Assembly: GCA_012517355.1 (NCBI GenBank)
Contig: JAAYVD010000067.1
Span: forward strand, 1-37,950
Direction: 5' to 3'
Source: Candidatus Rifleibacteriota bacterium
GTDB lineage: Bacteria > Muiribacteriota > Ozemobacteria > Ozemobacterales > Ozemobacteraceae
Length of the DNA: 37,950 bases
Within the stretch, counting starts at the first letter, position 1, and each line of letters starts with the position of its first letter. Positions 1,385 through 34,354 of this stretch are shown here, piece by piece. Below the pieces are notes generated by a model. It did not search any database. It was not told where the DNA came from and was given only the letters and a program-made list of their open reading frames with translations. The position numbers and the translations under genes were made by a program.

Positions 1385-1390
1385 CCGGAC

Positions 1391-1552
1391 GGCCCCTTGG
1401 CGGGGCGCGAAACCCGCGTTCCCCTCCGCCTGCGGCGGCGGCGAAGGGAAAGCCCTTCCGACGGCGCGTCAGTCAACCCCTTTGCGGGGCGCGAAACCCA
1501 CCTTGCGCACCGCCATCCGTGGCGGCAAAGGGGTATGTCCGACGTTGTGTCC
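1391..1552. repeat. Two tandem copies of a dispersed ~75-bp GC-rich repeat (family R1)
   Basis: Two related units lie head to tail at about 1391-1470 and 1477-1552. Each begins CCCCTT(T/G)GCGGGGCGCGAAAC and ends in a segment with a TCCGACG core; the second has inverted ends (CCCCTTTGC and GGCAAAGGGG). A third copy lies in reverse orientation inside a coding sequence at about 4855-4928. The gap from 1385 to 1751 holds no gene I can support; beyond these repeats I see only GC-rich sequence up to 1751. The form resembles REP or MITE-like non-autonomous elements. Confidence 0.75.
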
Positions 1553-1751
1553 ATCGGCTCCCGGGAAAACCCCCCGCCGTTCAGGCCATCCCCCTTCCCG
1601 GTCCCGGCGCCCCCCCCAAACCGCCCGGCCCGCCCGCCGCACCACGTTCGGGCCTGGCATCTCGCGATCGGAGCGGTCCCGAAAACCGTCCATTCGGTGG
1701 GGACCCCACCGGTGCGTGGGGTGGGACAGATCCGGGCTCCGGGGTCGACCG

Positions 1752-2742: not shown

Positions 2743-5700
2743 TCAGGGCGTGACCGTTCCCGAACCCTGCCATCCCCCGGCCGCGTAGGCCTTCTGGAGC
2801 CGGTCGTAGTCGAGCAGCAGGGACCGCTGGCGTTCCTCGAACGCCCGCACTTCCCGGAGGCGGTCCCCGGTGACAGCCAGTTCCAGGGGCAGCGGCGCGG
2901 TGGCGAAATCGAGGGGCCCGGCGGCCGTCGCGGGGTTGGCCGCGTAGGCCTGGCCCGGGCCGGCCTCGGGCAGCCGCAGGAACCGGTCGGGAGTGAGGAC
3001 GGCCCGGTCCCCGAACGAGGAGACCAGGATGGGCCGCACGGACCCCGTGGCCAGCAGCGATCGCCCCTGGTACGGATGGCCGGCCGGCATCGGGATGTCG
3101 AGCGCATCGAGGATCGTCGGCATCAGGTCGATCTGCGACCCCGGCGTGGGGTCGCGGACGAAGGCGGTCCGGCCCGGTTCGAGCATCGCGCAGAAGATGT
3201 TGGTCAGGTCGGGCGTGGCGATGAACCCGTGGCCGAGCATTCCCTCCTCGCCCAGGGCCTCGCCGTGGTCGGCGACGAAGACCACCAGCGTCGAGTCGAG
3301 CAGGCCTTCCCGCTGCAGCCCGGCCAGCAGGTCGGCGAACAGGTCGTCCATGAAGACCAACTGGTTGAGATACCCGGCCCGCAGGTGCAGGCCCGCCGCC
3401 ACCTCGTCCACGGTGGGGGTGAAGACCCGGCGCGCCGGATCGAGCAGGGGGAACGGGTGGTGCGGCGTCAGGCTGCTGAAGATCACCGCGAACCGCTCGC
3501 CCCGCTCCCGGTGCCCGCGGCACCGCTCCAGGATGGCGTCTTTCAGGCACCGTTCGTCGAGCCCCCAACCGGTCTCGTGCCACCGCTCCCGGCCGGGCAT
3601 GTTCGCCTGGTCGAAGCAGCCCTCCAGCGGCTGCATGTTCAGCCAGCTGGCGAAGTTCCGGTACTGGCGTTCACCGGGGTAGTAGTAGCTGACCCGGTAG
3701 CCGTGGTCGGCCAGGACCCGCACCAGCGACGGGCATCCGAGGGTGGGGGCGAGATCGCCCATCGACTCGGCCGGCGGATGGAGGCCGTTGAGGATCGCGA
3801 AATTGGCGTTCTCGGTGGCGAGAAAGCTGCAATGGATGCGGGTGAACAGCCGCATGCGGGGCGAGAAGGAGGCCAGGGCCGGCTGGGTGGGGAAGGGGGC
3901 GCCGTAGAGCGAAAGGTAGCGCGTGTGCATCGATTCCGCCATCACCAGCAGGAGGTTGTGGCCGGTGGGGGGGCGGCTCTCGAGCACCTGTTGCGGGAAG
4001 GGAAGGACGGCGGCCAACTCGCGCAGGTGCTGCGCGGGGGGCAGGGCGGGGGCGGTCGCGCGGACCAGGCGTCCCGGCAGGGCGGCCGCCAGGTTCCACC
4101 AGGTCGGGGTGGCGAAATCCCGCAGGGCGGGTTGCAGGAGGCCCAGCAGCAGCAGGCTTCCCAGCCCGGTTCCCAGCAGGGCCGCCGCCCGGCCGCCGGT
4201 CGGGAACGGCGGCGGCGGCCCCAGCCGGACCGCGTCGCGCTGGCCGAGCCAGAAGACCAGAATGACCCCACCCACGAGCGAGGGGGTCAGGTAGGGCCGG
4301 ATCGAGGCGATGGCGATGCCCAGCTGCCCCGCGAAATCGAGCAGGGACCAGCTCAGCCGCACGCCGAGCAACCCGAACACCCGCGTGTCGACGAGGGTGG
4401 CGATCACGTACAGGGAAGCCAGCAAGCCCAGGCCGCGCCGCAGGATGGTCGCCGGCCAGGAAAGGGATGGGCTGCCACCCGCCCGCCCCTCGCCGGCGGC
4501 CGGCCCCAAGGATCCGGGCGAGCCGACCTCCAACCCACCGGCGAGGGCCGCTTCCCCTCGTTTCCCGCTCCCGTCGGGGAGGCGGCCGAAGACCCACCAC
4601 ACCGCCCAGACCAGCACCAGTTCGGGCAGGACCAGGGCGGGCAGGGCGAGGGCCCCGGTCAGCAGCCGGATCATGTCGCCAAAATGCTTCGGCAGATACC
4701 CGGCCAGTGCCAACGTCACGAAGGGAACCAGCCAGGTAAGATCATCCCCCGGCCACCCGCGCCCGACGCCCCCCGCCCCTTCCTCAACGGAAGGCGGGTG
4801 ACCGACGCCCGGTCCGTCCGTCTCCGGCGCCAGGCCTTCGCTTCCCGACCGACACGGGGTCGGAAGTGCCCCTTTGCCGCCATGGGTGGCGGCGGGAAAC
4901 GCGAGTTTCGCGCACCGCAAAGGGGCCGGTGGGGCCAGCAACCGGGCGATCAGCATGACGCCGAGGTTGAGCACCGCCAGGTAGCCCAGGAACACCGAAG
5001 CCCGGGGGAAGGCGGCGACCCCCGTCACCCACGGCACGGCCAGCAGCAGGGTCGGGGCGGCCTGCCCCCACCAGGGGAGCGGCCCCGGCTGCAGCAGCCA
5101 GGTCAGCAGCCCGGTGAGCACCACCACCAGCCGGAAGACGGCCGTCAGCCCGGCGGTCGGGAACAGGGCCGGCCCCGCCGCCAGGCAGGCCAGCCAGGCC
5201 AGGGGCGGCAGCCAGGGCAGCAGCCGGGGATGGTCGCGGCCGAGAGGCAGGGCCAGGAAGGGAACGGCGAAAGCCAGGGCCGGCCAGGGCGGATCGCCGA
5301 ACCGCAGGGCCAGGATGGCCAGCAGCTCGTCGGCCGGCAGCAGCCCGTACAGCCAGGCGGTCACCTGGTGCATCTGGCCGGTCTCGCCCGACCAGACGAT
5401 CACGAGGGCATACAGCCCGAGTCCGGCCAGGTGAGCCAGCAGCAGCAGCAGCCAGGAGGGAGGTCCGGCCGGCCGGCGGGCCAGGGTGGCGGCGGCCAGG
5501 AAAGCGAGGCCGGCCAGGGCGGTGGCGGCGGCGAGGTCCAGGGCGTGCAGAGGGGCCCACTCGAGCGAATCGATCCGGATGGAGGAAACGAAATACCGCG
5601 CGGGCTGGCTGGCCACCAACCCCCACCGCCCCAGGGCGAGCACCACCAGCAGCCAGGGCAGCCGCCGCCACCACGGGACAGCGGGGCCGCACCCGGCCTC

Positions 5701-5829
5701 CCGGGCGGCGGGGAAGGGCGGGCACACTAGACGGGACCTTCCTTGGGAAGCGGTGGGAGCCTGCCCGACGGCGGACCCGGGTTCGCCTTCCACTCCCTGG
5801 CATCGGCGACCATCGTTCCCGCATCCCAA
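2743..5829 (-). CDS. Polytopic membrane protein with C-terminal sulfatase-fold domain (LTA-synthase/phosphotransferase-like)
   Basis: The first ~600 residues contain 13-14 hydrophobic segments; the C-terminal part (about 620-930) has the alkaline phosphatase/sulfatase fold, with an initial LLLVMAES strand (nucleophile region), a TPHHPF segment and the metal-site motif VVFVADHGE near residue 850. This layout is seen in LtaS, OpgB/MdoB and lipid A or capsule phosphoethanolamine/phosphoglycerol transferases, which act on envelope glycans outside the inner membrane. Substrate is unknown. The start is uncertain: the N-terminal ~34 residues look non-natural and a GTG at 5727 is a good alternative. 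About 25 residues near 301-325 are encoded by an inserted R1 repeat, and the following low-complexity loop (to about 365) is Gly/Pro-rich. Confidence 0.8.
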   Translation of the reverse strand: MGCGNDGRRCQGVEGEPGSAVGQAPTASQGRSRLVCPPFPAAREAGCGPAVPWWRRLPWLLVVLALGRWGLVASQPARYFVSSIRIDSLEWAPLHALDLAAATALAGLAFLAAATLARRPAGPPSWLLLLLAHLAGLGLYALVIVWSGETGQMHQVTAWLYGLLPADELLAILALRFGDPPWPALAFAVPFLALPLGRDHPRLLPWLPPLAWLACLAAGPALFPTAGLTAVFRLVVVLTGLLTWLLQPGPLPWWGQAAPTLLLAVPWVTGVAAFPRASVFLGYLAVLNLGVMLIARLLAPPAPLRCAKLAFPAATHGGKGALPTPCRSGSEGLAPETDGPGVGHPPSVEEGAGGVGRGWPGDDLTWLVPFVTLALAGYLPKHFGDMIRLLTGALALPALVLPELVLVWAVWWVFGRLPDGSGKRGEAALAGGLEVGSPGSLGPAAGEGRAGGSPSLSWPATILRRGLGLLASLYVIATLVDTRVFGLLGVRLSWSLLDFAGQLGIAIASIRPYLTPSLVGGVILVFWLGQRDAVRLGPPPPFPTGGRAAALLGTGLGSLLLLGLLQPALRDFATPTWWNLAAALPGRLVRATAPALPPAQHLRELAAVLPFPQQVLESRPPTGHNLLLVMAESMHTRYLSLYGAPFPTQPALASFSPRMRLFTRIHCSFLATENANFAILNGLHPPAESMGDLAPTLGCPSLVRVLADHGYRVSYYYPGERQYRNFASWLNMQPLEGCFDQANMPGRERWHETGWGLDERCLKDAILERCRGHRERGERFAVIFSSLTPHHPFPLLDPARRVFTPTVDEVAAGLHLRAGYLNQLVFMDDLFADLLAGLQREGLLDSTLVVFVADHGEALGEEGMLGHGFIATPDLTNIFCAMLEPGRTAFVRDPTPGSQIDLMPTILDALDIPMPAGHPYQGRSLLATGSVRPILVSSFGDRAVLTPDRFLRLPEAGPGQAYAANPATAAGPLDFATAPLPLELAVTGDRLREVRAFEERQRSLLLDYDRLQKAYAAGGWQGSGTVTP
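4855..4928 (-). repeat. R1 repeat copy inserted in frame within the sulfatase-like gene
   Basis: Read on the minus strand this is CCCCTTTGCGGTGCGCGAAA ... GGCAAAGGGGCACTTCCGAC, the same unit as the two copies at 1391-1552. It lies in the open frame of the membrane sulfatase and adds a stretch that includes AATHGGKGALP, placed between two transmembrane segments. The reading frame is kept on both sides, so the host gene tolerates it. Confidence 0.75.
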
Positions 5830-13779: not shown

Positions 13780-13935
13780 CCCGCCATCTTTCCATCCTGG
13801 TTCGCTCCAATCTCCGCTCGCCCCGCCCCCCTCCCTCATCCCGCGCCCACCATCCTTTTGCTCCCCGTCCTCTTTCTCTTCCCTTTCTTTCCCGCCATCT
13901 TTCCATCCTGGTTCGCTCCAATCTCCGCTCGCCCC
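13780..13935. repeat. Two direct copies of a ~45-bp unit
   Basis: The segment CCCGCCATCTTTCCATCCTG continuing through TTCGCTCCAATCTCCGCTCG occurs at about 13780-13824 and again at about 13891-13935, without visible mismatches. The DNA between the copies is pyrimidine-rich on the plus strand. Confidence 0.85.
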
Positions 13936-13940
13936 TTCCC

Positions 13941-14106
13941 CTCCTTCTCCTTTTCCCCTACTCCTTCTTTTTCCTTCTTTTTCCTTCTTTTTCCTTCTCT
14001 TTCCTTCTTTTCCTTCTCTTTCCTTCTTTTCCTTCTCTTTCCTTCTTTTCCTTTTTTTTCCTCCATTTTCCTTCTTTCTTTCCCCCCTTTGCCAGTTTCT
14101 CCCTCC
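13941..14106. repeat. Homopyrimidine/homopurine tract (TTTTCCTTC-type repeats)
   Basis: About 165 bp are almost pure C/T on the plus strand, made of imperfect TTTTTCCTTC and TTTCCTTC units. Such tracts can form triplex (H-DNA) or slipped structures and vary in length by slippage. Frames running through it give Ser/Phe/Pro or Lys/Arg/Glu low-complexity peptides, which I regard as non-coding. It lies between a terminator and the next gene. Confidence 0.85.
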
Positions 14107-27862: not shown

Positions 27863-27959
27863 GCAATTCCGGGGACATGATACGGAATTCCGGGGAATTC
27901 CGAGTTCCGGGGACATGATACGGAACTCCGCGGAGTTCCGTATCATGTCCCCGGAACTC
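27863..27959. repeat. Palindromic element PE, copy A (half-copy plus full palindrome)
   Basis: A 58-bp perfect palindrome occupies 27902-27959; each 28-bp arm contains CCGGGGACATGATACGG. Directly left (27863-27901) is a broken copy that matches the left arm and centre of copy B (GCAATTCC... form). The palindrome overlaps the 3' end of the YqgF-like gene and supplies its stop codon. The gap 27716-27862 holds nothing recognisable. Confidence 0.95.
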
Positions 27960-28410
27960 CCCGTATCTCTGTTGCCAGGCCGTTGGTGCGGAGGTAGCGC
28001 TCGGCGATGATCACTGCGGCGTAGTCGTCGACCGGGCGGGGCGGCAGTTGCAGGCCCAGCGGCACCAGCCGCCACAGGCCGGTGGGCGGGTGGTCGGCGA
28101 AGTAGCGGCGCCGGGCTTCCTCGGTCGTCTTGTACTCGTCGCCGATCCGCACCGGCAACTCGACCTGCAGGTCGCGCAGCACCTTCATGACCAGGGCGCC
28201 GGCGGTTCCGGCCCCCATCACCATGATCTCGGGCCGCCGCTCGGCGATGACCCGCTTGACCACGCGATGAAACTCGGATACAAAGGCGATCCCCTGCTCG
28301 TGCACCCGCAGGTCGTACCCGACCACGGCCCACCCGATCTTGTCCGTACCAGGATCGACGGCCAGGACCACAGGCGCGGGCACGGGAACGGGGACGGGCA
28401 CGTCGGCCAT
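27943..28410 (-). CDS. YqgF/RuvX-like RNase H-fold protein, copy 1
   Basis: This 155-residue protein has an RNase H-like fold: VVLAVDPGTDKIGWAVVGYD (first catalytic Asp), a middle EIMVMGAGTAGALVMKVL with RIGDEYKTTEEARRRYF, and a final PVDDYAAVIIAERYL carrying the last acidic residue. It resembles YqgF/RuvX-type putative nucleases (pre-16S rRNA processing or resolvase-like), though neither role is established for this branch. The last residues (VPGT-stop) are encoded by palindrome copy A. A TTGACA hexamer at 28470-28465 lies upstream. The gene and 126 bp of upstream DNA are duplicated at 30930-31465. Confidence 0.75.
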   Translation of the reverse strand: MADVPVPVPVPAPVVLAVDPGTDKIGWAVVGYDLRVHEQGIAFVSEFHRVVKRVIAERRPEIMVMGAGTAGALVMKVLRDLQVELPVRIGDEYKTTEEARRRYFADHPPTGLWRLVPLGLQLPPRPVDDYAAVIIAERYLRTNGLATEIRGVPGT

Positions 28411-28506
28411 GTCAGGGATGATCCTCCACTACCAGACGAATCTGTTTCCAAAACGGTACATGGTTGTCAATGAACCAGAGATCCTCTCTCCCAGTATCGG
28501 CACCCC
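27971..28506. repeat. Segmental duplication, left copy of YqgF block
   Basis: These 536 bp match 30930-31465 with few substitutions and no indels (constant offset of 2959 bp). The block begins 11 bp after palindrome A and ends at the CAGTATCGGCACCCC boundary upstream of the YqgF start. Beyond that point the two copies carry different genes. Confidence 0.92.
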
Positions 28507-28536
28507 TGCCAGGCCCCATTAGAAGTTCTTGTCCTA

Positions 28537-28917
28537 TCAGGGGCGGCCCTCAGGCTGATTGAGGCCCCGCCGCCGTACTCGGAGTCCTGATCCAGACACC
28601 ACCGTAAATGACCCAGCCAGCTCACGGGAATGGTCCGCGATGCACATCTGGAAAACCCGGACCTTTTCGACCATGGCCAACCCTCCCAACCGGACCAAAA
28701 TTACCCCTGCGGCAACCATCCGTTTCCGAAAAACCAGTTCTCCAAAATCCTTGTCAGCGGTGACAAGGATCAGCCCTTCCGCATTGGCCCGATTCAACAC
28801 TTCTTCGTCCACCAACCCCGGTTCGGTCTCGACAACACACCGGACCGGATACCCCAGGGAGCGAAGGGCCTCCGCCAAAGGTTGGTCGACGCTTTCATCG
28901 ACAAAAAAGCCGATCAC
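28537..28917 (-). CDS. DUF5615 PIN-like toxin
   Basis: This 126-residue protein has GFFVDESVDQPLAEALRSLG at the start (first acidic residues), LNRANAEGLILVTADKDFGE in the middle and VILVRLGG later, the pattern of Mut7-C/DUF5615 PIN-like ribonucleases. Such genes pair with DUF433 antitoxins. The start overlaps the DUF433 stop by four bases (28914-28917). The C-terminal ~20 residues (SGSGLRVRRRGLNQPEGRP) look atypical and might result from the nearby recombination junction. Confidence 0.82.
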   Translation of the reverse strand: MIGFFVDESVDQPLAEALRSLGYPVRCVVETEPGLVDEEVLNRANAEGLILVTADKDFGELVFRKRMVAAGVILVRLGGLAMVEKVRVFQMCIADHSRELAGSFTVVSGSGLRVRRRGLNQPEGRP

Positions 28918-29147
28918 GCCGTCTTCCGAACCGGGTAAACAACGTCCGCACGCATGGCTTCCGCCGCAAATTGAAGGGCTGCCAGGATTCCTTCACGGGT
29001 CAACCTCGGGTGAGCCGCCAGGAGATCTTCGATGGTCTCACCTGCACCTAGTTTTTCGAGAATCAGTTCAACCGTGATCCTGGTGCCAGCAATGACAGGT
29101 TTTCCCATCATGATGCCCGGGTCGGAAACGATAATTGGCTGGTTCAT
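28914..29147 (-). CDS. DUF433 antitoxin, copy 1
   Basis: This 77-residue protein contains the DUF433 pattern IMMGKPVIAGTRITVELILE, then GETIEDLLAAHPRLTREGI, a winged-helix-like DNA-binding domain found in antitoxins. It is coupled with the DUF5615 toxin gene by an ATGA overlap. GGAGGG precedes the ATG. A second copy at 31881-32093 shares the first two thirds nearly identically and has a different tail. Confidence 0.82.
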   Translation of the reverse strand: MNQPIIVSDPGIMMGKPVIAGTRITVELILEKLGAGETIEDLLAAHPRLTREGILAALQFAAEAMRADVVYPVRKTA

Positions 29148-29169
29148 ACAACCCTCCGAAACGGGTGTT

Positions 29170-29415
29170 TCATTTTCCTAAGCCGAAACGGCCCTTTCCA
29201 AGATGTGGTCCACAGACAACACCATCGTGACACTCGGCAAAATCAACCGGGCCTTCGATCTGGATGCCAGCAACCTTTTCGAGAAACCCAGGTTTCTTTC
29301 CTTCACGCTTCGCCCGGACGATGTTCTTTATCACTTCATAGATCTTCTTCAAATCGGAATCTTCAAGGCCTTCCAGAGCTTTGAGCACCCTCTGCCTGGT
29401 CGTCACGGCGTTCAC
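29170..29415 (-). CDS. Small antitoxin-like protein, possibly frameshifted at the end
   Basis: This is an 81-residue frame: TTRQRVLKALEGLEDSDLKK, IYEVIKNIVRAKREGKKPGF, then a tail FAECHDGVVCGPHLGKGRFG. The helical Lys/Glu-rich first part resembles small antitoxins of VapB/RelB type, but I cannot name a family. After PVDFAE an alternative frame would read VTMVLSVDHILERAVSA-stop, which looks more protein-like, so a small frameshift is possible. This gene is absent from the second module, where DUF433 is separated from mobB by only about 50 bp. Confidence 0.4.
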   Translation of the reverse strand: MNAVTTRQRVLKALEGLEDSDLKKIYEVIKNIVRAKREGKKPGFLEKVAGIQIEGPVDFAECHDGVVCGPHLGKGRFGLGK

Positions 29416-29490
29416 CTCCTGAACAACGGGCCCAGATGGTCAGCTGGCTCAGATAACCGCTTGGCCCCTCGTTTTCTCCATTATCCCAGA

Positions 29491-29961
29491 TCAGGAACGG
29501 GGGGGCAAGGTGGCGAGGAGGGTGCGAACGCTGGCCAGCAGGTCTTCCGAAGCCTCGGGGCGGGGGGGAAGGGAGAGCAGGATCTGCCCCGCGACGGCGC
29601 CGGGGGGCAGGTCGCCGAGCAGGATGGTGGGAAGGTCAGCCTCGCGGGCTCCTTCCACGATGACCAGGTCGACCTTCCCGGCGAAGAAGCCAACCACCTC
29701 GTCGAGGCCGAAGGCCGGATCGCGCAAAAATGCTTCGGCATACCCGGGCGACAGACCGACGCTGGCCACCGCCCCCGCGGCGAAGTGCAAAGCGGTGTCC
29801 TTCGCTGTTTGCGGAGGGCTCATGGATGTGCGGGAATGTTTGACGACGGCAACGGACCAACCGGTACAAATCCGGACAAGCGCATCGATGAACGTGGTCT
29901 TCCCCGACCCCGACCGCCCGAGAACGCGAACCACCCGCGTGACACGGGAAGCGTCAGCCAT
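29491..29961 (-). CDS. mobB: MobB, molybdopterin-guanine dinucleotide biosynthesis adaptor, copy 1
   Basis: This 156-residue GTP-binding protein has the P-loop RVLGRSGSGKTTFIDALV, then AVVKHSRTSM and DLVIVEGAREADLPTI. MobB assists MobA in adding GMP to molybdopterin or delivers the cofactor. The ATG at 29961 overlaps the stop of a small remnant frame (TAATG), the same arrangement as in the second copy. This copy has a normal N-terminus (MADASRVTRVVRVLG). Neighbouring MOSC and MoaC sequences also belong to molybdenum cofactor metabolism. Confidence 0.85.
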   Translation of the reverse strand: MADASRVTRVVRVLGRSGSGKTTFIDALVRICTGWSVAVVKHSRTSMSPPQTAKDTALHFAAGAVASVGLSPGYAEAFLRDPAFGLDEVVGFFAGKVDLVIVEGAREADLPTILLGDLPPGAVAGQILLSLPPRPEASEDLLASVRTLLATLPPRS

Positions 29962-30050
29962 TACGACTTGGAAGCCATCCACCCCAGCCTGGCAAACAAC
30001 CCCGGACTCACATGGCAAATGGCCTCGAGGATGGGCGGTTTGGCGGTCAT
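29961..30050 (-). pseudogene. Remnant joining start of MNT gene to end of HEPN gene
   Basis: The 29-codon frame starts MTAKPPILEAI, matching the first residues of the nucleotidyltransferase at 33413 (VTTKPPILEAI). It then continues HVSPGLFARLGWMASKS, matching the last residues of the HEPN protein ending at 32683 (RLNPGLFSRPGWMTTQS). The intact pair in the second module has the 17-bp direct repeat TCCTCGAGGCCATCCAC at both positions. The remnant therefore results from deletion of about 600 bp between them. Confidence 0.85.
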
Positions 30051-30351
30051 GGCCGATTCCCCGACTGGGCCGGGGAGGCCGCAGGGACGGGGATGGCCAG
30101 CAGGGGGTCGCCGGTGCGCAGGCGGCCGCCGGCCAGCACGCGGCCGAAGATGCCTTCGCGGGGCATGACGCAGTCGCCGGCCTGGTGATAGACGGCGCAC
30201 CGGGTGTGGCATTCCTTGCCGATCTGGGTGACCTCGAGCACGACCCCCTCGCCGCCGAACAGCAGCGTGCCGAGCGGCAGTTCGAACAACCGGATGCCCG
30301 ACGTGGCCACGTTCTCGGCGAACGAGCCGAAATCGACCGAGAGGCCCTTGT
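30047..30351 (-). pseudogene. Truncated MOSC domain, 3' remnant of a MoaC-MOSC gene
   Basis: About 100 residues (KGLSVDFGSFAENVATSGI through GGRLRTGDPLLAIP) are nearly identical to the C-terminal MOSC part of the MoaC-MOSC protein encoded at 33410-34354. The similarity ends exactly at palindrome B, which has replaced MoaC and the first part of MOSC. An open frame continues through the palindrome (reading NSGDMIRNS and EFRIMSPEL) to about 30472, so a hybrid peptide could be made, but no function is expected. Confidence 0.85.
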
Positions 30352-30425
30352 GCAATTCCGGGGACATGATACGGAATTCCGGGGAATTCCGTATCATGTC
30401 CCCGGAATTGCGCCCCGGAATTGCG
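30352..30425. repeat. Palindromic element PE, copy B
   Basis: Two 29-bp arms (30352-30380 and 30383-30411) with a GG centre contain CCGGGGACATGATACGG and its complement. A further broken arm end (CCCCGGAATTGCG) lies at about 30413-30425. The element forms the boundary of the truncated MOSC sequence. Confidence 0.95.
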
Positions 30426-30468
30426 AATTTGCCGCACATCCCGCCACCGGCTTTCCCTTTTCCCAAGC

Positions 30469-30648
30469 TCACTCACCGAGAAGATCACGGAGGATTTTCC
30501 GGGCCAACCGCTCGTCGATCTCGGCATGCCGCGGCACCGGCTGGGCTACCCCCGTCTTCGGGTTCCGGTATCAATCGTGTTTTCCACCATGGCGGACGAG
30601 CCTGGCACCACCATCGGTCAGTCGCTTGACCAGCTCCCGACGCTTCAT
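30469..30648 (-). pseudogene. hicA: hicA with an internal stop codon
   Basis: The frame begins KRRELVKRLTDGGARLVRHG and GKHD, then meets TGA at 30573-30571 where HicA proteins normally have Trp (D-W-Y). It continues in the same frame as YRNPKTGVAQPVPRHAEIDE and ARKILRDLLGE to a TGA at 30469. The reconstructed length (59 residues) is normal for HicA, so this looks like a single TGG-to-TGA nonsense change in a recently active toxin. Its start overlaps the stop of the hicB-like gene (ATGA). Confidence 0.8.
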
Positions 30649-30830
30649 GCCACTTTCAGGAGGGCTTTCTTCCTGATGCCGGGAATCTCCCCCGAAACCA
30701 GATCTTTGTAGAGGTCCCGGAGATGGTCTTTGAGATCCTCGAGCGATTCGCCCTGGGTCTGGTAATCGGGATAGTCTTCGAAATACCCCACCCAGAACTT
30801 CTCCTCTTTCCAAAACACATACTTCGCCAT
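30645..30830 (-). CDS. hicB: HicB-like antitoxin paired with a broken hicA
   Basis: This 61-residue protein has the single-domain HicB pattern: KYVFWKEEKFWVGYFEDYPD, then TQGESLEDLKDHLRDLYKDL. The ATG at 30830 or the one codon earlier can serve as start; AAGGG lies upstream. The downstream hicA is interrupted by a stop, so the antitoxin would be an orphan. The gene lies between the two duplicated modules, bounded by palindromes B and C. Confidence 0.75.
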   Translation of the reverse strand: MAKYVFWKEEKFWVGYFEDYPDYQTQGESLEDLKDHLRDLYKDLVSGEIPGIRKKALLKVA

Positions 30831-30851
30831 CATAAACCCTTCTCCTCAGCG

Positions 30852-30928
30852 GAATTCCGGGGACATGATACGGAATTCCGAGGAATTCCGTATCATGTCC
30901 CCGGAATTCATCATGTCCCCGGAATTCG
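30852..30928. repeat. Palindromic element PE, copy C
   Basis: A 58-bp palindrome (30852-30909) with a GA centre has arms containing CCGGGGACATGATACGG, followed by a broken arm ATCATGTCCCCGGAATTC (30911-30928). As with copy A, it abuts and supplies the stop codon of the YqgF-like gene. Confidence 0.95.
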
Positions 30929-31369
30929 CGTTGCCAGGCCGTTGGTGCGCAGGTAGCGTTCGGCGATGATCACGGCGGCGTAGTCGTCGACCGGGCGGGG
31001 CGGCAGTTGCAGGCCCAGTGGCACCAGCCGCCACAGGCCGGTGGGCGGGTGGTCGGCGAAGTAGCGGCGCCGCGCCTCCTCGGTCGTCTTGTACTCGTCC
31101 CCGATCCGCACCGGCAACTCGACCTGCAGGTCGCACAGCACCTTCATGACCAGGGCGCCCGCCGTGCCGGCACCCATCACCATGATCTCGGGCCGCCGCT
31201 CGGCGATGACCCGCTTGACCACCCGATGGAACTCGGACACGAAGGCGATCCCCTGTTCGTGCACCCGCAAGTCATAACCGACCACGGCCCACCCGATCTT
31301 GTCCGTGCCAGGATCGACGGCCAGGACCACAGGCGCGGGCACGGGAATGGGATCGGGGACGTCGGCCAT
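30911..31369 (-). CDS. YqgF/RuvX-like RNase H-fold protein, copy 2
   Basis: This 152-residue protein is nearly identical to the one encoded at 27943-28410; the differences I see are a few residues (PDPIPVPAP versus PVPVPVPAP, VLCDLQ versus VLRDLQ) and the last residues. The acidic RNase H-type residues are kept, so both copies may be active. The end (RIPGT-stop) is read from the broken arm of palindrome C. The shared upstream block contains TTGACA at 31429-31424. Confidence 0.75.
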   Translation of the reverse strand: MADVPDPIPVPAPVVLAVDPGTDKIGWAVVGYDLRVHEQGIAFVSEFHRVVKRVIAERRPEIMVMGAGTAGALVMKVLCDLQVELPVRIGDEYKTTEEARRRYFADHPPTGLWRLVPLGLQLPPRPVDDYAAVIIAERYLRTNGLATRIPGT

Positions 31370-31465
31370 GTCAGGGATGATCCTCCACTACCAGACGAAT
31401 CTGTTTCCAAAACGGTACATGGTTGTCAATGAACCAGAGATCCTCTCTCCCAGTATCGGCACCCC
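30930..31465. repeat. Segmental duplication, right copy of YqgF block
   Basis: This is the partner of 27971-28506 at a constant offset of 2959 bp. It begins two bases after the broken arm of palindrome C and ends at the same CAGTATCGGCACCCC boundary. Confidence 0.92.
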
Positions 31466-31477
31466 ATCCCTGGGGAA

Positions 31478-31753
31478 TTAGCCCTCAGGGGGAGGAACCT
31501 TTGATTTAAGCGGATATTTCTCCGGATTCACCAAATTGTCCAATTCGAGATCGATGTCAAGCTCAGGCCAATACAGATGGTCGCCGTGGAGAACCTGGAC
31601 GTTCTGCACCGCCCCGATGGTCTGGTTCCGGAAATATGGAAACTCCTCGAAATCGAGGAAAAACTCCTGATCCCGGACCAGCAACCAAAGGCCGAACCGG
31701 GAAATAGCCTCAACGCTGGCCGAAGTGCTTATGCCAAGCTTTGATGATCTCAT
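31478..31753 (-). CDS. DUF2442-like protein
   Basis: This is a 91-residue protein: STSASVEAISRFGLWLLVRD, QEFFLDFEEFPYFRNQTIGA, then YWPELDIDLELDNLVNPEKYP. The WPxLDxDL motif is characteristic of DUF2442-type proteins, which are frequently found next to DUF4160 genes in toxin-antitoxin-like pairs. The ATG at 31753 has GGAGGAG just upstream and overlaps the end of the broken DUF4160 gene. It occupies the position that the DUF5615 toxin holds in module 1. Confidence 0.7.
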   Translation of the reverse strand: MRSSKLGISTSASVEAISRFGLWLLVRDQEFFLDFEEFPYFRNQTIGAVQNVQVLHGDHLYWPELDIDLELDNLVNPEKYPLKSKVPPPEG

Positions 31754-31884
31754 CGCGATGCTCCTCCACCAATCCCTGGTTTTCCCTCCCCCCGTTCGCA
31801 GGTAACATGCACATGCATGCGTGGCTCTTCGTTCGAGAGAAAGAAGAACCGATACCCCTTGGCCCGAAAAATGGTTGGACTCAT
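31710..31884 (-). pseudogene. DUF4160 gene with internal deletion and frameshift
   Basis: From the ATG at 31884 the frame reads SPTIFRAKGYRFFFLSNEEP and RMHVHVTCERGEGK, the DUF4160 N-terminus, then stops at about 31750. The typical C-terminus, LVEEHRDEIIKAWHKHFGQR, follows immediately in another frame and ends with TGA at 31710-31712. The middle of the domain (about 20-25 residues) is missing. The start overlaps the DUF433 stop (ATGA), so it was the coupled partner of DUF433. Confidence 0.75.
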
Positions 31885-32093
31885 CGGGGCATTCGAAACA
31901 GGGAACAGCCGTGGAATGCCCGCGCGGCAGCAATGCTTTCCCGGGTCAATCTCGGGTGAGCCCCCAAGAGGTCGTGGATGGTCTCGCCTGCCCCAAGTTT
32001 TTCGAGAATCAGTTCAACCGTGATCCTGGTGCCGGCAATGACAGGCTTTCCCATCATGATGCCAGGCTCGGAAACGATGACCGGCTGGTTCAC
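31881..32093 (-). CDS. DUF433 antitoxin, copy 2
   Basis: This 70-residue protein starts at GTG (32093) with GGAGGGG upstream. It reads NQPVIVSEPGIMMGKPVIAG, TRITVELILEKLGAGETIHD, LLGAHPRLTRES, almost the same as copy 1 at 29147. The tail (IAAARAFHGCSLFRMPR) differs from copy 1. Its stop overlaps the start of the broken DUF4160 gene. Confidence 0.75.
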   Translation of the reverse strand: MNQPVIVSEPGIMMGKPVIAGTRITVELILEKLGAGETIHDLLGAHPRLTRESIAAARAFHGCSLFRMPR

Positions 32094-32146
32094 ACACCCC
32101 TCCGTAACAGTGCCACTGGGAGTTTCGCTCACTCCACTATGCCAGA

Positions 32147-32683
32147 TCAGATGCGGGGGGGCAAGGTGGCGAGGAGGGCGCGGACCCTGGCCAGCAGGTC
32201 TTCCGAAGCCTCGGGGCGGGGGGGAAGGGAGAGCAGGATCTGCCCCGCGACCGCGCCGGGCGGCTGGTCGCCGAGCAGGATGGTGGGGAGGTCGGCCTCG
32301 CGGGCACCTTCCACGATGATCAGGTCGACCTTTCCGGCGAAGAAGGCGAGCACCTCGTCGAGGCCGAAAGCCGGGTCGCGCAGGAAGGCTTCGGCATACC
32401 CGGGCGACAAACCGACGCTGGCCACCGCCCCCGCGGCGAAGTGCAAAGCCGTGTCCTTCCCTGTTTGCGGAGGGCTCATGGATGTCCGCGAATGTTTGAC
32501 CACGGCAACGGACCAGCCGGTACAAAACCGGACAAGCGCATCGATGAACGTGGTCTTCCCCGACCCCGACCGCCCGAGAACGCGAACCACCCGCGTGGCG
32601 CAGCCGAATTCCGGGGACACGAATTCCGGGGACATGATACGGAATTCCTCGGAATTCCGTATCATGTCCCCGGAATTCCCCAT
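32147..32683 (-). CDS. mobB: MobB copy 2 with palindrome-encoded N-terminal extension
   Basis: This 178-residue frame starts at the same ATG position as copy 1 (TAATG after the preceding gene). It then runs in frame through palindrome D, giving GNSGDMIRNSEEFRIMSPEF plus VSPEFGC, before joining the normal MobB sequence at TRVVRVLGRSGSGKTTF. From there it is nearly identical to copy 1, including VKHSRTSM and IVEGAREADLP. About 15 bp of the original start were replaced. Whether the extended protein folds, or whether an internal start is used, is unknown. Confidence 0.8.
   Translation of the reverse strand: MGNSGDMIRNSEEFRIMSPEFVSPEFGCATRVVRVLGRSGSGKTTFIDALVRFCTGWSVAVVKHSRTSMSPPQTGKDTALHFAAGAVASVGLSPGYAEAFLRDPAFGLDEVLAFFAGKVDLIIVEGAREADLPTILLGDQPPGAVAGQILLSLPPRPEASEDLLARVRALLATLPPRI
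32606..32678. repeat. Palindromic element PE, copy D
   Basis: A 58-bp palindrome (32621-32678, TC centre) carries CCGGGGACATGATACGG arms, with a broken arm GAATTCCGGGGACAC at 32606-32620. It lies entirely inside the open frame of mobB copy 2 and keeps the frame. It marks the right end of the YqgF-to-mobB segment in module 2. Confidence 0.95.
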
Positions 32684-33093
32684 TACGACTGGGTGGTCAT
32701 CCAACCCGGCCTGGAAAACAACCCAGGGTTCAAGCGGTGGATGGCCTCGAGGACTTCCCTGGCTGTATGCAAAAATGCCGTGGCCTCGTCTGGGGAGATG
32801 TTGTCAAGAATGCCGTAATCGCCCACCTGCCGGGCTTTTCGCAATGTCCGGAAATTCTCGGCGAAGGTCTTGGGAAGAATTCCCGGTTTGACCAGGTCTC
32901 GATGAAGGGCTATTTCGGCCCCATCATGCGAGGTGAAAAAAAACCCCTTGGCTGCAAACCAGGCAGAAACAGCATAAAAAGCGGCATAATACGCACGGGA
33001 TGCCGAAGCATTGGGATTGAAGGGCAATTCCCGCTCGGCACTGCCCACCGCATCGAGAGCTCGCTGCCAGAAGGCCGCATCTTCGCCCGTCAC
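32683..33093 (-). CDS. HEPN-domain protein (toxin of an MNT/HEPN pair)
   Basis: This 136-residue helical HEPN protein reads AAFWQRALDAVGSAERELPF, SASRAYYAAFYAVSAWFAAK, then helices rich in Arg and Glu. The YYAAFYA pattern is typical of the PF05168-type HEPN family, which pairs with minimal nucleotidyltransferases. The start is the GTG at 33093, overlapping the upstream TGA (GTGA). Its stop overlaps the ATG of mobB copy 2 (TAATG). Confidence 0.8.
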   Translation of the reverse strand: MTGEDAAFWQRALDAVGSAERELPFNPNASASRAYYAAFYAVSAWFAAKGFFFTSHDGAEIALHRDLVKPGILPKTFAENFRTLRKARQVGDYGILDNISPDEATAFLHTAREVLEAIHRLNPGLFSRPGWMTTQS

Positions 33094-33413
33094 GCCGCAA
33101 TTCCTTCTTTCTTGGCGGTTCGGTACAAGGCCCACTTTCCGGCAAGGAAATCTTCGTAGGGAACCGGCGTGGCATCGATGATCCGAGGCGGCACCAAGGT
33201 TTCTTCCAGGGGAAGGACCACCCGGGCGATTGCCTTCATGTCGTGGAACAGGCAGACTTTTCCGTCCAGCAATACCAGCACGTCGATATCACTGTCCGAA
33301 CGGGCAGTTCCCCGGGCCTCGGACCCGAACAGGATCACCCCCCGCAGCCGGGGCCCGAAGGCTTCCGCCAGGGCGGCGTGGATGGCCTCGAGGATGGGCG
33401 GTTTGGTCGTCAC
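33090..33413 (-). CDS. Minimal nucleotidyltransferase (antitoxin of an MNT/HEPN pair)
   Basis: This 107-residue protein has VILFGSEARGTARSDSDIDV, i.e. the GSx10DxD nucleotidyltransferase motif. The start GTG (33413) overlaps the stop of the MoaC-MOSC gene and the end overlaps the HEPN start, both as GTGA. In known MNT/HEPN pairs the nucleotidyltransferase modifies the HEPN toxin. Translational coupling to a molybdenum cofactor gene is unusual for a toxin-antitoxin pair. Confidence 0.83.
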   Translation of the reverse strand: MTTKPPILEAIHAALAEAFGPRLRGVILFGSEARGTARSDSDIDVLVLLDGKVCLFHDMKAIARVVLPLEETLVPPRIIDATPVPYEDFLAGKWALYRTAKKEGIAA

Positions 33414-34354
33414 GCCTTGTTCCCTGGGGGGCCCGGAGGGCCGGGGATGGCCAGGAGCGGGTCGCCGGTGCGGAGGCGGCCGCCGGCCAGCACGCGGCCG
33501 AAGATGCCCTCGCGGGGCATGACGCAGTCGCCGGCCTTGTGATAGACGGCGCACCGGGTGTGGCATTCCTTGCCGATCTGGGTGACCTCGAGCACGACCC
33601 CCTCGCCGCCGAACAGCAGCGTGCCGAGCGGCAGCTCGAACAGCCGGATGCCCGACGTGGCGACGTTCTCGGCGAACGACCCGAAATCGACCGTCAGCCC
33701 CTTTTCCTGCATGGAACGGATGCTCTCGAGCCCCAACAGCGAGACCTGCCGGTGCCAGTCCCCCCCGTGGGCGTCCCCTGCCACCCCGAAGCCGGGAACG
33801 ATCTCGACCTCGTCGCAGGGGTCCTTCGGCGTGCCTTTCGCCTTGCTCAGGGCGAGCTTCTCGATGCGGCCGGCCGCCACCCCCTCGCCCAGCCAGTCGC
33901 CGCTCTTGCCGCCGGTCTTGCGCACCAGCCGCACCCCCTCGAGCCGCGCCCCGCGCGCCACCGCCTTGACCATGTCGTAGACGTTCAAAAGGGCCACGCT
34001 GGCGGCGGTCATCGCCTCCATCTCGACCCCAGTGCGGTCGGTGGCCCGCGCCTCGGCCAGCACGCCGAGCCGCTCCGCCCCGAGCGGGAAGAAATGCACC
34101 CCGACCGCGTCGAGCCGGATCGGATGGGTGAGCGGGATCAGCTCCGACGTGCGCTTGGCAGCCATGATGCCGGCAACCCGCGAGGCGGCCAGGGCATCGC
34201 CCTTGGCCAGCTTCCCGCCCAGCAGCAGCCCGAGCGGTTCCGCCCCCAGCCAGGCGCTGCCAAACGTCACCGCCCACCGCGCCGTGACCGGCTTCTCGCC
34301 GACATCGACCATCTTGACGCGCCCCGCGACATCCAGGTGGGTCAGGTTTTTCAC
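33410..34354 (-). CDS. moaC: MoaC-MOSC fusion, molybdenum cofactor biosynthesis
   Basis: This is a 314-residue fusion. Residues about 1-155 are MoaC, which forms cyclic pyranopterin monophosphate: VKMVDVGEKPVTARWA, IMAAKRTSELIPLTHPI, GVEMEAMTAASVALLNVYDM and RKTGGKSG carry the conserved active-site Lys, His, Glu and Asp. Residues about 165-305 are a MOSC domain (EVEIVPGFGVAGDAHGG, FAENVATSG, ECHTRCAVY), a sulfur-carrier or cofactor-binding module. The start is a GTG overlapping the upstream nucleotidyltransferase stop (GTGA). MobB nearby acts in the same pathway. Confidence 0.88.
   Translation of the reverse strand: MKNLTHLDVAGRVKMVDVGEKPVTARWAVTFGSAWLGAEPLGLLLGGKLAKGDALAASRVAGIMAAKRTSELIPLTHPIRLDAVGVHFFPLGAERLGVLAEARATDRTGVEMEAMTAASVALLNVYDMVKAVARGARLEGVRLVRKTGGKSGDWLGEGVAAGRIEKLALSKAKGTPKDPCDEVEIVPGFGVAGDAHGGDWHRQVSLLGLESIRSMQEKGLTVDFGSFAENVATSGIRLFELPLGTLLFGGEGVVLEVTQIGKECHTRCAVYHKAGDCVMPREGIFGRVLAGGRLRTGDPLLAIPGPPGPPGNKA

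Follow-up and report, generated by a model that had tools for sequence, protein, structure and literature searches.

The window, a stretch of 37,950 nucleotides, is contig C145 of a host genome of 7.11 Mb in 184 contigs (G000). An ATPase gene (5-1384, Pfam), which we take to be radA-like, lies at its left end, and 2 nt past the stop codon of this gene stands the hexamer GGACGG, directly followed by a head-to-tail pair of units of a short palindromic repeat, R1. A further R1 unit lies on the opposite strand, within a gene for a membrane sulfatase that presumably resembles LTA synthases. Just past the tandem pair are a PIN-domain gene and an adjoining ribbon-helix-helix gene (1752-2455), likely a toxin-antitoxin pair, and a long pyrimidine tract with TTCC-type repeats at about 10-nt spacing occupies 13859-14090. 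The features that concern the repeats are these:

1387..1392, (+): target hexamer GGACGG, 5′ of the tandem R1 pair (sequence and motif statistics)
1394..1474, (+): R1 unit, first of the head-to-tail pair, more diverged (nhmmer E 3.8e-8)
1477..1560, (+): R1 unit, second of the head-to-tail pair (nhmmer E 8.7e-21)
2743..5727, (-): membrane sulfatase gene, PF00884 (Pfam and codon-model gene call; the open frame extends to 5829)
4465..4581, (-): second lineage-specific sulfatase insert, about 39 residues (417-455), absent from two congeners (alignment)
4740..4842, (-): remainder of the insert not in homologues, with no recognisable R1 copy (alignment)
4843..4924, (-): R1 unit, 81-nt class, CACTT linker, in frame in the sulfatase gene, sense, frame S1 (nhmmer E 1.7e-21)
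4926..4931, (-): 5′ flank of the sulfatase R1 copy, CACCGG, a poor fit to the target GG[AT][CG]GG (flank listing)
27864-32683: R2, a REPIN-type inverted pair

An earlier note, made from the sequence of the window, had described a repeat that stands twice in tandem and once in frame within a sulfatase-like membrane protein. Both locations are borne out by the profile matches, and the open frame around the second carries PF00884 (residues 625-912, Pfam). The span first given for the genic copy, 4855-4928, was 12 nt short at its low end and 4 nt long at its high end. A covariance model places the same copy at 4840-4925 with 94.5 bits, and a repeat search of the window pairs 1477-1557 with 4845-4925 as inverted copies of 81 nt that are 79% complementary. 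The encoded peptide covers approximately residues 302-330, between hydropathy spans 276-302 and 383-417, in agreement with the proposed site between transmembrane segments.

Comparison with homologues of the membrane protein, the check that the earlier note had proposed, shows the R1-encoded residues to be absent from 4/4 homologues aligned over the site, two of them from congeners and two from other genera of the family; the insert is missing from L032 and L033 (congeners G001 and G002) and from L138 and L139. Homologues include those of Candidatus Ozemobacter sibiricus BY5 and of a Candidatus Ozemobacteraceae MAG, whose loci match G001 and G002 in tests with 600-nt pieces. Both are classed in the same genus as G000, which places the host in Riflebacteria, in Ozemobacter or near that genus. 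The match to a further homologue, L140, begins at residue 598, short of the insert site, and is left out of this count. The catalytic motifs are retained, with AESMHT, ADHGE and GHGF common to the homologues and at most one change in each. The R1 unit makes up about half of the insert; the best match of the remainder elsewhere in the genome sample described below is 37 nt long (E 0.004). The second sulfatase insert, which is not R1, has two short, weak matches in that sample (E 0.002). That the residues at 302-330 are native and resemble the repeat by chance has next to no probability: the open reading frame does run uninterrupted through R1, but this reading is ruled out by the homologues examined, and R1 DNA is also found in intergenic regions. 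As the homologues lack the residues and the unit also occurs in unrelated genes, the sequence comparison supports an insertion of the repeat in frame.

The earlier note had further argued from a second palindromic family inserted in frame in the window. This argument fails for the window, as R2 shows: 0/10 of its half-units there lie inside a called gene, with 7 intergenic and 3 overlapping a gene edge. The stretch 27940-33710 contains modules duplicated about 3 kb apart, with R2 copies between them; these modules include two RuvX-like genes (27943-28410 and 30911-31369, Pfam just below cut-off), and the duplication also holds a fragment with 94% identity to a section of a MoaC-MOSC gene.

The R1 family and its fold

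Copy number in the host genome was assessed in a sample of 16 contigs (1.931 Mb, three of them partial), picked for length or known R1 matches, in which two profiles were used to count non-overlapping matches at E<1e-3. The sample contains 247 R1 units, 240 of the 81-nt class and 7 of the 60-nt class, while the reversed sample sequence used as a control gives no R1 match at E<=1. This density of 128 per Mb corresponds to about 910 units genome-wide by extrapolation from the sample so chosen. The covariance model finds at least 150 copies in the host genome: the best 150 of 10031 first-look candidates were scored, and 150/150 passed. The units form 192 arrays (146 single, 38 double, 7 triple and 1 quadruple), and their lengths of 81, 84 and 60 nt are each divisible by three. 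Single units lie on average 17.5% from the consensus, a wide decay of copies. Exact matches of a 24-nt R1 signature in viral contigs number 0. R1-family units also stand at contig ends of the host assembly (C30:5-90, C29:22-86, C168:43-167 and C61:6-66), and the repeat therefore probably breaks assembly.

The consensus folds into an outer stem, two inner hairpins and a 3′ hairpin that is followed by GGTCGG, and the 5′ end is paired to the interior of the unit rather than to the opposite end. As single-stranded DNA, the sulfatase copy and the second and the diverged first tandem copies have fold z-scores of -3.5, -2.7 and -1.4, respectively. An 81-nt model finds matches in 4/56 relatives, the host genome included, and a second model, for which 60-nt units were taken from four genomes, finds the family at a cut-off of E<=0.001 in 4/39 genomes of the phylum, with 93 matches in G000 (of 134 candidates scored), 39 in G002, 9 in G004 and 3 in G010. 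The congener G001 has no R1 match with the 60-nt-based model.

Across 20 sequences, the two R1 helices contain 6 pairs that are changed on both sides, compared with a shuffled mean of 2.4 and 0/500 shuffles that reach 6, and versions of the helices that are slid out of register score lower on every covariation measure. The 3′ hairpins of G004 and G010 have different arms that are still complementary, and in this comparison the ACTTCC before the hairpin and the GGTCGG after it are nearly constant. Single copies in these other genomes can carry a stop (G010) or be 59 nt long (G004). Within the 81-nt subfamily alone, 1/24 pairs is changed on both sides and the covariation term is unfavourable, as expected of recently spread copies. 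Pairing is thus kept between species through compensatory changes, which, as far as a comparison of sequences goes, shows that the folded single strand of R1, be it DNA or RNA, matters.

Insertion target, arrays and genes

The 5′ flanks were analysed for 85 units of the 81-nt class that stand first in their array and have a clean 5′ end, taken from the 192 arrays after truncated, low-score and 60-nt units were dropped. GGNNGG stands directly upstream of 55/85 of these units against a background of 1.7%, with a preference for A at position three (51%) and C at position four (67%), and 5/6 of the 60-nt units with listed flanks fit the target as well. The remaining 30/85 flanks do not match GGNNGG, and the flank of the sulfatase copy itself is CACCGG. 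The right end of R1, GGTCGG, itself fits the target pattern, and some GGTCGG flanks could be the tails of older units that escaped recognition. In 67 arrays, the 5′ hexamer and the 6 nt past the right end have an identity of 0.358, against 0.339 +/- 0.016 when shuffled, and thus give no sign of a target duplication; 10/67 arrays share 2 or 5 nt between their flanks, near what GC-rich flanks may give. Position three of the target is mostly A, whereas the right end of R1 has T. The hexamer on the 5′ side is therefore read as the target, and that on the 3′ side is assigned to R1, with target and insertion point both deduced from filled sites.

Since the end of R1 fits its own target, arrays should grow head-to-tail by fresh insertions. 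Neighbouring units are oriented head-to-tail in 55 pairs and opposite in 2, and the period is 81 in 27/50 and 84 in 11/50 neighbour pairs. In 38/41 neighbour pairs, the actual neighbour is equalled or surpassed in similarity by more than 5% of random partners matched for divergence, and for these a local tandem duplication as the origin of the array is not supported; the other 3/41 pairs are exceptionally similar, perhaps through local duplication. Units of 81 and 60 nt occur within one array, and linker subtype shows no pattern with position in the arrays. Orientation is weakly correlated with GC skew over the 192 arrays (r 0.14); a bias towards the lagging strand, as expected for IS200/IS605 elements, is not clearly seen.

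Genes called with a codon-usage gene caller cover 86% of the sample. Counted within and outside them, as the earlier note had suggested, 59/192 arrays lie inside called genes, 123 are intergenic and 10 lie at edges, whereas 11303/13503 (84%) of the GG[AT][CG]GG hexamers are genic; among the 59, at least one call (C22 81212-86059) appears to be a false ORF and many show hardly any coding signal to one side, while 44 units have coding signal on both sides. A Pfam domain is present in 15/20 R1-bearing ORFs (7/10 at E<=1e-3 and 8/10 at E<=1e-5). In these 15 ORFs, 19/22 arrays lie outside the best-matched domain stretches, and in a NadB-like protein R1 lies between its two domains. The 3/22 arrays inside domains are in the GAF domain of a 2247-residue kinase, ATP-grasp_3 and YdjC; in the GlcNAc_2-epim and UvrA-like proteins, whose domain match is partial, the inserts may also be inside the domain. 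Because genic arrays are fewer than the targets would give and lie mostly outside recognised domains, tolerance of R1 insertion in genes is supported.

Two insertions can be followed in homologues of other proteins. A YdjC-family gene with one R1 unit encodes, between flanking residues that match, 35 residues where the closest homologue, from G001, has 8, a gain of 27 that equals one 81-nt unit; the more distant G003 homologue has 12 residues at the site, and the insert is absent in 2/2 homologues. In a pseudouridine synthase (L175:11339-12508), R1 lies within a longer insert that is absent from 3/3 homologues (G001, G002 and G004), and a C-terminal extension contains two more units. The G002 homologue of this synthase has its own long insert at another place.

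Among units with coding signal on both sides, the sense frames are S2 in 19, S1 in 2 (the sulfatase copy is one of the two) and S0 in 2, and the antisense frames of the 81-nt class are A2 in 11, A0 in 9 and A1 in 0, A0 being also the frame of one 60-nt unit; within an array, units are not independent of each other in these counts. The positions of GG[AT][CG]GG in genes predict 66% S2, 23% S1 and 11% S0 in sense, and 64% A0, 30% A2 and 6% A1 in antisense. The sense pattern is near this prediction and the antisense pattern shares the empty class A1, but A2 is in excess (11/20 against 30%). Selection for one reading frame is accordingly mostly explained away by target positions, although the A2 excess remains. 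Among the 102 intergenic arrays with a 3′ neighbour, 41 lie within 30 nt of a stop codon, and 29/41 of these are antisense against the 76% expected from target hexamers (p 0.46). A smaller sample, with 26/33 antisense arrays, had suggested selection on orientation behind stops; in the larger sample, the orientation agrees with the distribution of targets.

Stop codons are absent from all six frames of the 81- and 60-nt consensuses, which alone is weak evidence, as 14-19% of random genome stretches of 81 nt and 22-27% of those of 60 nt are equally open. For units with both ends present, the departure in length from the model is 0 or a multiple of three in 48/48 genic units, a figure partly built in by calling open frames, and in 81/98 others. 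Units of the +3 length class have a linker in common and seem to be a single subfamily rather than repeated events. Stop-free units are equally common in genes (41/64) and outside (87/131), which speaks against copy-by-copy selection. As the orientation behind stops and the greater part of the frame bias follow from target position, the data neither require nor support selection for the inserted peptide. The suggestion that such insertions are tolerated or selected therefore stands in its first half, on genic depletion and the location mostly outside domains, and gives way in its second.

Mechanism and alternative readings

R1 is very probably a mobile element, and it is likely to be a non-autonomous, strand-specific miniature one of 81 nt, with subfamilies of 84 and 60 nt and the target rule described here. 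The sequences show a preference of R1 for sites 3′ of GG[AT][CG]GG and no target-site duplication, and its GGTCGG end is a target of that kind, which allows fresh insertions behind older units and thereby head-to-tail arrays. With a length divisible by three and a stop-free consensus, a genic insertion can add 27 codons and leave the frame intact. The mover would act in trans on folded single-stranded DNA, and the insertion rule may point to a Y1/HUH enzyme. In the logic of the IS200/IS605 family, the target is kept 5′ of the element, a similar site lies at the 3′ end, no duplication arises and hairpins stand near the ends. Given the same combination in R1, we tentatively propose a Y1/HUH transposase of the IS200/IS605 or RAYT type as its mover. 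Twelve right-end-like sites outside units in the sample, inspected as sequence for an autonomous partner with a lone R1 right end, contain no clear candidate. A further step, rather doubtful at present, would make R1 a selfish element adapted to genes: most targets lie in coding DNA, so other forms would be purged along with the host gene, and the 60-, 81- and 84-nt lineages would have been kept three-fold and stop-free in six frames as self-stacking, frame-neutral units moved by a putative single-strand recombinase.

The genome's one detected Y1_Tnp (RAYT) gene (L031, G000:C109) might move R1 as an unusual client, R2 being its own repeat. The distribution of the gene fits to a degree, with one also in the R1-carrying G002 and none found in G001, the congener without R1. 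In the stretches read around them, both RAYT genes are, however, flanked by R2-type repeats and not by R1, with R2 half-units on both sides in G000 and similar repeats beside the G002 gene (L209); within the initial 20 kb of contig C109, the closest R1 is about 6.6 kb away, and no Y1_Tnp was seen in the R1-carrying G004 and G010, which are only 79% and 67% complete. This relationship is thus unlikely. The 28 R2 half-units in the sample at E<0.1 are distributed as 23 intergenic, 3 at edges and 2 inside a gene.

Two other readings give R1 a function in the host. It could be a structured RNA or a terminator-like element behind genes, with genic copies as by-products, as the compensatory changes in two helices and the 41/102 arrays close to a stop codon would allow. 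The orientation of these arrays is nevertheless close to the target expectation, no match to an Rfam family in the window attains the gathering score, and one congener has no match while copies decay widely, so that we consider a functional RNA quite improbable. Selection of the R1 peptides as useful linkers in proteins could account for the single frame of 19/23 well supported sense units, but target positions alone would already place 66% in that frame; with genic insertions depleted and stop-free units as common outside genes as inside, a useful linker is very improbable. For R1 as a mobile element, the target hexamer and the length divisible by three account for most frames, orientations and arrays. 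The family provides, in proteins whose domains are known, dozens of natural insertions some 27 residues long, points to a putative enzyme that moves folded single strands, and is a warning for annotation that some odd linkers in these proteomes are mobile-element remnants.

Comparison with known systems

In-frame palindromic insertion is best known from Rickettsia. A search of the literature on Rickettsia and REPIN/RAYT repeats, Riflebacteria, Ozemobacter and in-frame dispersed repeats found no description of the R1 family. Bacterial MITEs share with R1 a short length and the lack of genes; unlike them, R1 shows no target duplication and no terminal inverted repeats, its 5′ end pairing internally. 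The likeness to IS200/IS605 elements lies in the 5′ target, the similar 3′ end, the hairpins near the ends and the absence of a duplication, with target and duplication judged from filled R1 sites. Unlike these elements, R1 has no enzyme-bearing relative among the sequences found, and its target is a GC-rich hexamer.

REP sequences, in the part of a survey drawn on here, are 20-40 bp long, carry GTAG or CGTC tags and form mainly head-to-head dimers with few head-to-tail, and the CGTC repeats are described there as having no linked transposase gene (PMC3733652). R1 resembles REP/REPIN repeats in its high copy number, hairpins and mostly intergenic location, and, within that part of the survey, the CGTC class in being without an associated transposase gene (PMC3733652). 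In contrast to head-to-head dimers, R1 is arranged head-to-tail (55 vs 2) and has several hairpins per unit. Neither a GTAG nor a CGTC tag, found at the hairpin foot in REP/REPIN, is fixed at the flank or right end of R1 on inspection, and the RAYT genes of G000 and G002 have R2-type repeats beside them in the stretches read.

Rickettsia palindromic elements are described, in the part used here of a review of prokaryotic MITEs, as inserted in frame in genes, with similar processes elsewhere held to be conceivable (PMC10969869). On that partial description, R1 is like them in being short and palindromic and in lying both between genes and in frame in unrelated genes (PMC10969869, PMC3733652), and for three such genes the homologues are without the insert. 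It differs in its units of 81, 84 or 60 nt against about 150 bp, a comparison made on published descriptions, and in its head-to-tail arrays, its preferred 5′ target hexamer, its use of several frames and its different phylum. R1 behaves like the Rickettsia palindromic elements, yet with an architecture of its own.
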